The position numbers and the translations under genes are program-made. Shown here in pieces: positions 12,187-16,098 of a stretch of DNA of 35,035 bases. The notes under the pieces were generated by a model. It worked only from the letters and a program-made list of their open reading frames with translations, did no database searches and had not been told where the DNA came from. Within the stretch, counting starts at the first letter, position 1; each line of letters opens with the position of its first letter. The stretch is from Bacteroidota bacterium (lineage in GTDB: Bacteria; Bacteroidota; Bacteroidia; Chitinophagales; Saprospiraceae): the NCBI GenBank assembly GCA_017857395.1, contig JAFMDF010000066.1, forward strand, positions 1 to 35,035, read 5' to 3'.

Positions 12187-12315
12187 ATGAAAAAGGCCAA
12201 CTTTTCCATGCGAGTAAAATTTTATGGCACACGGGATTCGATACCTGTCTGTTCAAAAGATTTCCAAGATTTTGGAGGCAATACTTCTTGTATTAGTATC
12301 TCGATTAACCTATAA
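12187..12315 (+). pseudogene. 5' remnant of a metallo-beta-lactamase-fold hydrolase gene
   Basis: A 42-codon ORF encodes MRVKFYGTRDSIPVCSKDF, then DFGGNTSCISI. This matches the N-terminal strand region of MBL-fold hydrolases of the type that begins VRFWGTRGSIPVPG and continues YGGNTSCVEV. Intact members run to 250 or more residues and need the downstream LDAGTG and HxHxDH metal motifs. None is visible before the next gene at 12496 in any frame that I checked, so this is a truncated remnant. It lies between two cyclase genes. The remainder of the 12119-12495 gap shows nothing else. Confidence 0.6.
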
Positions 12316-12495: not shown

Positions 12496-15400
12496 ATGAA
12501 AAAAAACTTAATCTTCTTTACCCTCCTTTGGATTATCCTCCCTGCTTTTAGTCAATCTACTTTTATAGATTCACTAGAACAATTGATTCCAGCGGCCTCC
12601 TTTTCCGAAAGGATAAAACTCAAATATCGGGCAGAACCCTATTTGAAGAGCCTAGTGGATATTGATGAAAAACTGCAGCAAGCACAGCGCTACGTAGCCG
12701 TAGCTACGACCTTAAAGGATTCGCTTTTATTAGATCATGCTTATTGGCAATTGGGAGAGGTCTATAAAACAATCGGTGACACGATAAATAGTAAGCAAGC
12801 TTTTGACCAAGGAAAAATGATTGCCAGCCAATACGGATGGTCACTCGGAGATAGTCGTCGTAAAGAAGTTCCAACAGTAAATTTTGCTGGTATCTTTACA
12901 ACCACATATAAAGATAGCTCCCAACAAATGAGTTTTGATTCCATTAGGAAGCGGGGGGATATTTTTGAACTTCATCGTTCCAATGATACTTTTGACCTCA
13001 ATGCGGCTTATTGGTGTAAATTGAAATTGAGGGGACATCCTGAAAAAACGAAGGAGTATGTATTTCAAATTTCATCAGACAGCTATGGCAGAAGGAGTTG
13101 GAATAATATTGCCGCTTATTTGGTACATGAAGATGGAAGCGTGGAAAAGCAACAGTCAGGGTTTGCGTTCCATCCCGAAGAAAAGGCGGTTCCTTATCCT
13201 CCTAATTTACTTCGATACAGCATTGCAAAAAATGAAAAAGCAGTTTTATATTTTCGATTGGAAGGCGTAGAAGCCAAAAGAAAACCAAGTGCTATTGCTA
13301 CCTGGATAGTAGATGATGGATTCTATCTAGATACCGAAGGAGGCTATGAATTTAAAGGTCAATTTAATAATGATTTTGGTGCTCGTTATTCTTTTATCAG
13401 CAACTACATTTTCCATCACGAAATTGTAGAAGACTCAGCAGGGACAATGGATATTGAATCCGTTTACAATAACTGGCAATCGCTGAATCGGAAAGATTGG
13501 ATGAACGTAAAACCTGTATTAAATAGAGTCTATTGGCTAAAAGCTAAATTCATAGGTAGTCCTATCTTTAATGGCAAACAAGTGATTCATGTGACTAGTA
13601 GTGCAGGAAATGATTTACAAAGCTTTGACTATGTAGATGCTTATATTCCTGACGGTAAAGGAGGCTTTCACCATCAAAGAACAGGAGATCAAGTGCCTTT
13701 GCGGAAACGGCCCTATCATTTTTGGGCAACCTTTTTAAAAATTGATATACCGCTGAATGATACCTTGGAGGTATTGGTACGATTGGAAGGAGCAGATTCA
13801 CAACTATTGCCTAATCAAATTCTCTTAACCCATATTGATGAATCTTCTATATGGCCAGACCAAATTAATAAGAGCCTATTAAGTGGAATACTTTTAGGAA
13901 TCCTAGGTGTACAAGCCTTATACTTCTTGCTCTTATTTTTTATGGAAAGAGACCGTATCCATCTTTATTTAGCCTGTTTCGTTTTAGGTTTCTTGTTATT
14001 TTTTCATTTTAGCCCCGACAACTATCGTCAATTTGTAGCCATTCCAATCTGGAAGGAAATTACTTATCAATTAAATTGGATCAGTTTACTCTTGGTGTTT
14101 TACGGCTTAATAAAATTTACTCAGATTTACTTTAATTATCCAAAGTCTTCTCGCCTCTCCAAGTGGGGTATTCCTATTTACTTTTCTCTTTTAGCTATTG
14201 TCATTTTTTTACTTAATATAGAAAAGGAAACAGATTATTTTTCATTTCTTGGAAGCTTTATTCAAGTATTTATTGGTCTTGGTGTGGTAATAGTCTTAGG
14301 ATTAGTTTTTACTTCCAAGAAACAAACGCATGTTTCTAAAAGCTTATTCTTGTTGGCTTTTTTACCTTTTCTCTCTGTTCTTCTTTTTTCAATAATTCTC
14401 GAGATTTTACCTTAAATTCTTGATGCTAATTCGACTGTATTTAATTTTATAAATCTGAATCAAAGTAGAATCTGGGAACTATTTACGAATGCATTCCCAT
14501 TTTCCATTGTTTTTTGTTTAGTCATGTTGGCACTAAGTGCAGGCAAAAGGAACAATGGCTTGAAAGTAGAAAAGGAAAAAGCCCTCCAAAAAAATCTTGA
14601 TGCTCAACAACAAATGTTAGCAGAACAAAAGCGGGTTAACCAAGCCATCAGTCGTTTTGTACCCAATGAATTTTTGACTGCCCTAGGTAAATCCAATATT
14701 ACAGAAATCGCTTTAGGGGATACGGTCGAAAAAGAAGTGACAGTTTTCTTTTCAGATATTCGGGATTATACGTCGATTGCAGAGGCTTTGAGTCCGGAAG
14801 ATAATTTCAAATTTGTCAATGCTTATAATGCGAGGATGGGCCCGATTATTCAAAAAAACAATGGTTTTGTCAATCAATATTTAGGCGATGGAATTATGGC
14901 GATTTTTCCTAAATCGTCGGAGGATGCCCTTCGTGCAGCTATCGCGATGCAGCAAACCATTCGACAATTTAACGCCGAAAGAAGAGCTGGTGGCAAAAGG
15001 AAAATTCGGGTAGGGATGGGCTTACACAGCGGTTCGCTCATTATGGGCATTACAGGCGATGAAAATCGAATGGATGCGACCACTATTTCCGACTCGGTCA
15101 ACTCGGCTGCTCGTATTGAAAACCTTACCAAATATTATGGCGCTGCTATTTTATTGAGTGAAGTGAGCTTAAAAAAATTAAACAATCCGTCCGAATTTCA
15201 TTTGCGCTACTTAGGCGAAGTACAGGTAAAAGGAAAATTAAAGCCATTAAAAATTTACGAATGTTTCGACGGAGATACCGCAGATATGATTGCTTTTAAA
15301 TTGGCGACTTTAACTCAATTTGAAAAAGGCATTCAATCTTACTTTGAAAAATCCTTTGCCAAAGCAGCCTATATTTTTGAATCCATTACGCTACAAAATA

Positions 15401-15504
15401 ACGACGATCGGATTGCTCAATTGTTTTTGAAGAAAGCGAAGGCATTAGATGTTGCGGGTGTGCGGGAAGATTGGACGGGCGTAGAAATGATGTTGGGAAA
15501 GTAA
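12496..15504 (+). pseudogene. Seven-helix receptor (7TMR-DISM-like) nucleotide cyclase interrupted by one in-frame TAA
   Basis: Two open stretches, 12496-14415 (639 codons) and 14524-15504 (326 codons), are in the same frame. The 36 codons between them contain no other stop. Only TAA at 14413-14415 (codon 640) breaks a 1002-residue protein. The order is: signal peptide; helical repeats (about 20-120); two beta-rich extracellular domains resembling 7TMR-DISM sensor modules (about 130-290 and 310-455); six membrane helices (about 458-637); then, after the stop, the seventh helix (FPFSIVFCLVMLALSAG), a coiled coil, and a class III cyclase domain. In the downstream piece, the metal Asp residues are D78 and D122 and the N/R pair is N193/R197; Gln118 takes the usual purine-selecting Lys position. 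The first downstream ATG (14524) lies inside helix seven, so it is not a natural start. If expressed now, the sensor and the enzyme would be separate polypeptides. Confidence 0.8.
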
Positions 15505-15663: not shown

Positions 15664-16098
15664 ATGAAACAAACACAATATAAAAACTATCAGCTACTAC
15701 TCAATAAAATTGGGACGACGTTTCAGCAACATCAATCTAGGGCAATTAGGCAAGTAAGTATAGAAAAAGTACAAGCTTACTGGGCTATTGGACAACAAAT
15801 CGTTGAATATGAACAGGAAGGAAAAGTCAAAGCGGAATATGGTAAACAATTATTGATACAATTATCAAAAGATTTGAAAACGAGATATGGGAAAGAGTTT
15901 TCTAGGACGAACCTAGTGTATATGCGCCTTTTTTACATCAAATACTCAAAAAGTCAGACGGTGTCTGACCAATTAAGTTGGAGTCATTATGTGGAAATAT
16001 TAAGTATTTCAGATGATTTAGAAAGGTCTTTCTATGAACAACAAACGGTGATAGAAAGATGGTCGGAAAAATGACTTGGTGAGTCATCTTTATTTGAA
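15664..16098 (+). pseudogene. Truncated DUF1016/YhcG-type nuclease gene
   Basis: The open part (15664-16074, 136 codons) matches the N-terminal DUF1016 domain: VQAYWAIGQQIVEYEQEG, YGKQLLIQLSKDLKTRYG, FSRTNLVYMRLFY, LSWSHYVEILSISDDLERSFYE. Intact YhcG-type proteins are about 330-380 residues and carry a C-terminal PDDEXK-like nuclease domain, which is absent here. The ORF breaks at ERWSEK-stop, where family members continue with a WSVRELKRQI-type sequence. In another frame, 16081-16098 reads ESSLFE, reminiscent of the conserved SSLFERLALS segment that follows, which suggests a small indel plus loss of the rest. It is probably non-functional as a nuclease. Confidence 0.7.

Follow-up and report, generated by a model that had tools for sequence, protein, structure and literature searches.

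The forward-strand frame at 12496–15504 of the window (the whole 35,035-nt stretch of Saprospiraceae DNA analysed here) is that of a receptor cyclase gene with exactly one internal stop, a TAA at 14413–14415, where both of the orthologues found have an arginine codon, CGA. The best explanation appears to be a genuine and fairly recent nonsense mutation in a receptor cyclase of known kind, with a probability of roughly 0.75; most likely the gene lost its function through an ordinary mutation, and the genome has many similar genes. We infer that living cells do carry the stop and have lost the function of the receptor, with a minority-strain base at this codon a possible alternative to a fixed mutation. 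Three other readings rank below this one, in the order error, functional split and read-through; the odds for the four are the authors' judgement and were not computed.

The interrupted frame and its parts

By ORF listing and translation, the frame consists of 639 codons, the stop and a further 362 codons, for 1002 positions in all. The two flanking ORFs, at 12496–14415 (639 aa) and 14524–15504 (326 aa), are co-framed, and the 36 codons between the stop and the downstream ATG (14416–14523) are open. Apart from the stop, the frame reads from a hydrophobic N-terminus through a 7TMR-DISMED2 domain and seven hydrophobic segments to a linker and, last, a class III cyclase. Two Pfam matches fall 5' of the stop, PF07696 (DISMED; E = 1.4e-21, best stretch residues 309–441) and PF07695 (7TMR-DISM_7TM; above cut-off, model positions 2–174 of 205), and one 3' of it, PF00211 (E = 1.9e-18, 67.2 bits vs. 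a cut-off of 21.9). The end of the PF07695 match at position 174 of 205 was considered as a sign of truncation and rejected, as in the two orthologues that have no interruption the match reaches only 183 and 184.

Kyte-Doolittle peaks, with overlapping ones merged by hand, place six segments before the stop (about residues 465–483, 488–506, 526–546, 557–575, 588–606, and 617–635) and a seventh after it (662–680). The N-terminal part of the receptor (12496–14412, plus strand) carries the hydrophobic N-terminus, 7TMR-DISMED2, and 7TMR-DISM segments 1–6; the open stretch just past the stop covers a loop and most of segment 7; and the downstream ORF, which begins at the first ATG, GTG, or TTG past the stop, encodes the end of that segment, the linker, and the class III nucleotide cyclase domain (PF00211, 14731–15243), all on the same strand. 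Codon 640, between segments six and seven, is the stop, and codon 677, near the end of segment seven, is the ATG at 14524. The sequence-only reading, which had described a single in-frame TAA between helices six and seven, two co-framed ORFs joined by 36 open codons, and an ATG inside the seventh helix, is borne out on all of these points by translation and hydropathy. In the window, six of the helices are encoded before the stop and one after it, and the cyclase lies beyond the TAA rather than on the sensor's chain; in the orthologue L092, all seven (by hydropathy) and the cyclase are on one polypeptide. An AlphaFold2 model of L092, made from a four-row alignment, had a mean pLDDT of 43.0 and was set aside for topology.

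Orthologues and the codon at the stop

The two orthologues found are both in Saprospiraceae metagenome-assembled genomes. L092 (CAJQQY010000214.1, uncultured Saprospiraceae) has an intact 1000-aa ORF with PF07696, PF07695, and PF00211, and is 60% identical to the window gene before the stop and 70% after it. The second and closest, G001, reads through the stop site and the rest of the cyclase without interruption, but about 340 codons are missing from its start, and no other match to them was reported in that genome (94% complete); with this part missing, it was rejected as an intact comparator. Where the gene breaks off (L062/L091, on G001:C410), it adjoins an S10 peptidase frame that is itself cut there. 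The loss would be a rearrangement or a chimeric contig, and the locus may be unstable. In a tree built from 15 cyclase parts, with three further family rows excluded as incomplete or not cyclases, the window and G001 group at 100/100 and L092 joins them at 93/95, so that both appear to be orthologues of the window gene, with moderate support in the case of L092. Chance co-framing of the halves is excluded because the orthologues have both in one frame. The proposal that this was recently a single receptor cyclase of about 1002 residues is accordingly well founded, L092 being intact with the same three domains and G001 open across the site.

The TAA differs from the CGA of L092 and G001 at two bases, so two substitutions are needed, and one miscalled base on CGA cannot give TAA. 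In the window lineage, the arginine codon would have become TAA either by way of TGA or by way of CAA (Gln), and either order is plausible. Of the Arg codons common to both orthologues, 1 of 16 became CAA on the window branch, and a synonymous G-to-A change is found at 4 of 31 positions with an ancestral third-position G. The 32 sites that are CG in both orthologues read CG (22), CA (4), AG (2), GG (2), TA (1), or CT (1) in the window. A CpG-type change was considered as the cause, but neither two-step route is favored over the other and both are possible.

It is unlikely, though ahead of the other rivals, that the stop is a sequencing or assembly error and that the true genome has a sense codon here. 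The assembly (10.15 Mb) is in 631 contigs with 4.82% estimated contamination, coding sequence is conserved on both sides of the stop, and, given the Arg codon that did change to CAA, a tolerated Gln plus one miscalled base would suffice. A single error on the ancestral codon would not, however, since CGA in both orthologues is two bases off. Nor would any single miscalled base explain what lies just upstream of the receptor at 12187–12312, a 42-codon stub. Over 38 residues it matches, at 92% identity, the beginning of an open frame of 322 aa on another contig of this genome (G000:C378), and it is apparently a truncated gene copy. Among the options first proposed from the sequence (nonsense mutation, sequencing error, or a cyclase now made separately), the two-base distance favors the first and argues against the second in its simple form; the third is taken up below.

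The sequence-only reading had named orthologues ending naturally at the same residue as what would tell against a recent break. None was found among the 25 distinct related 7TM genes that could be checked, the two orthologues included. In all 25 the frame continues for at least 154 codons past the stop site, in several cases only to the edge of the locus or contig. The first survey, with four copies of the window excluded, gave 28 rows with a 7TM match reaching query residue 270 of 311, from which the window itself (L113) and two repeats were removed to leave these 25. In a recount of 145 non-window loci there were 71 matches, of which 25 ended before residue 270 and were left unjudged, 22 were repeats, and 24 were kept; the 25th gene, L080, had been merged in the recount with its 96% identical neighbor L019. 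One locus with just nine codons to its edge (L033) is a cut copy of another, L085, which runs on for 340 codons. Judged from these sequences, the split is derived, and among those searched it is seen only in the window.

The searches behind these counts covered 100 related genomes (the window's own included), at least 66 of which match the cyclase part and 14 the sensor part, and 398 genomes of the family, of which 42 match the 7TM part, again counting the window's own. The only orthologue that the 398-genome search added to G001 is in G310, where the match has the same coordinates as L092. A contig scan gave three loci, from two uncultured Saprospiraceae metagenome-assembled genomes. By eye, the tails of the related sensors resemble cyclases or histidine kinases, and three tails scanned with Pfam were two cyclases and one hybrid histidine kinase. 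At one locus (L095, G000:C521:14000–24500) two adjacent receptors share 1.94 kb of sensor DNA at 96% identity; one (a 930-aa frame) ends in a cyclase and the other (1158 aa) in HisKA, HATPase_c, receiver, and AraC-type HTH domains.

Consequences for the sensor and the cyclase

Going by its domains, the intact receptor would sense a ligand outside the inner membrane and pass the signal through the seven helices and linker to the cytoplasmic cyclase. With the stop in place, the expected product is a sensor of 639 residues that has six membrane segments but lacks an output. Synthesis of the cyclase half would require ribosomes to restart some 108 nt on, at the first ATG, and the cyclase would then come without its sensor.

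Pairwise dN/dS values for the window and G001 (Nei-Gojobori) are 0.36 for the sensor part covered by G001, 0.27 for the 36 post-stop codons, 0.06 for the segment end and linker, and 0.11 for the cyclase and C-terminus. When polarized with L092, amino-acid changes number 16 on the window branch and 19 on that of G001 in the receptor, 2 and 1 in the post-stop stretch, 2 and 3 in the segment end and linker, and 2 and 5 in the cyclase and C-terminus (with 23, 7, 0, and 12 unresolved, respectively), and the tree branches of the two are about equal (0.049 for the window, 0.047 for G001). Neither half has decayed more in the window than in G001. Because of this, the stop is probably recent when set against the divergence from G001. 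Of two marks of a pseudogene, a disabling lesion absent from its relatives is found here, going by the two orthologues and the 25 related genes, while relaxed constraint on the window lineage is not, as could be the case for a recent lesion. That neither half has decayed further fits a recent stop, an error, or a retained cyclase equally and does not choose among them.

The catalytic residues of the cyclase are intact. In an alignment including 2w01 and 6fht, the window cyclase has two Asp, an Asn, and an Arg in columns that we take to be the metal-binding pair and the transition-state residues, and Gln/Asp at what is presumably the substrate pair. With these metal and transition-state residues kept, the cyclase, if made, could be active. 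Gln/Asp occurs in all 16 aligned rows, the window included (the incomplete L100c was excluded). The canonical substrate residues of adenylyl cyclases are Lys plus Asp or Thr, a pair that is absent here, and the protein is therefore not called an adenylyl cyclase.

These intact residues and the cyclase dN/dS of 0.11 are what might be expected of a functional split, in which the sensor ends at segment six and a sensor-free cyclase is made from the ATG at 14524 or the next in-frame one at 14614, but this is unlikely, and it ranks behind error. The dN/dS value averages over the whole period since the window and G001 parted, and a large share of that period may predate the stop. Of the 25 related sensors checked, 0 are split at this place. 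There are only near-cognate codons in the 108 nt between the stop and the ATG at 14524, itself a gap that tells against the split. At the 14524 position the window gene shares a methionine with both orthologues, but none of the 11 paralogues that could be aligned there has one (two further rows have a gap), so this methionine was probably inherited as part of the helix.

A sigma-70-like match (9 of 12) at 14527–14556 on the plus strand, just inside the downstream ORF, lies upstream of the ATG at 14614, but such matches between 12000 and 16200 are at chance level, with 13 found against an expected mean of 12.8. For a Bacteroidota-type pattern there are five matches in the whole window compared with 2.82 expected, a number reached by 15 of 100 shuffles, and none between 12994 and 15584. 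Terminator-like sites number 8, vs. 3.0 in shuffles, with none between the stop and the ATG at 14524. The earlier suggestion that the cyclase is now made apart from its sensor thus finds no positive support: the start is not conserved in paralogues, promoter matches are at chance, and the gap is 108 nt. A more specific version, in which a 7TM receptor cyclase has only just been uncoupled and is caught before decay, with a six-segment decoy sensor and a sensor-free cyclase from an internal start, is rather improbable.

Least probable of all, and by our estimate very improbable, is read-through or recoding of the TAA to give a full-length receptor. Coding constraint on both sides of the stop would fit this, but both orthologues have a sense codon at the site and none of the 25 relatives checked has a stop there. 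TAA followed by A is an efficient terminator, and the TAA here is followed by A. A nonsense mutation remains the preferred reading.

Genomic setting and comparison with known systems

The receptor locus adjoins other, apparently truncated genes, which speaks for the nonsense-mutation reading. In addition to the stub upstream, the frame at 15664–16074 has the N-terminal domain of DUF1016 only (Pfam), ended by a TGA at 16072–16074. Three frames in this genome match DUF1016_N, a long one of 366 aa and two short ones of 161 and 141 aa, the window's being one of the short pair. The window may thus not be the only place with the short form. There are 44 cyclase-domain matches in the genome, three of them with internal stops (on contigs C84, C482, and C630). 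Two neighboring cyclase genes on C84 (L109, G000:C84:12500–16500) show frame changes by eye, and those on C482 and C630 (L107 and L108) are apparently damaged, with stops inside the matches. An apparently damaged, 5'-short cyclase on C487 (L099) starts shortly before the catalytic domain, on a contig without a match to the sensor part.

The importance of the lesion is mostly confined to this genome. It serves as a clear example of how large Saprospiraceae receptor-cyclase families may turn over through ordinary lesions, and of how two orthologues suffice to recognize a stop codon as derived rather than as part of a naturally split gene. Should the cyclase prove to be produced independently, the locus would amount to a modest natural experiment with an output domain freed from its sensor. 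Receptors of the 7TMR-DISM type are reportedly the subject of a 2003 paper. A search for literature on adenylate cyclase in Saprospiraceae found none. The literature found on 7TMR-DISM and class III cyclase receptors includes PMC1592074.

The catalytic half resembles class III cyclases (PF00211; PDB 2w01 and 6fht) in its metal Asp pair and transition-state Asn and Arg, and differs at one position, where 2w01 has Glu and 6fht Lys while the window and all aligned rows have Gln. As a whole, the gene has the architecture of the 7TMR-DISM receptors (PF07695/PF07696), in which DISMED2, the seven-helix region, and an intracellular output are on one polypeptide, except that in the window this polypeptide is interrupted after segment six. 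L092 is alike in architecture but intact, with CGA where the window has TAA.
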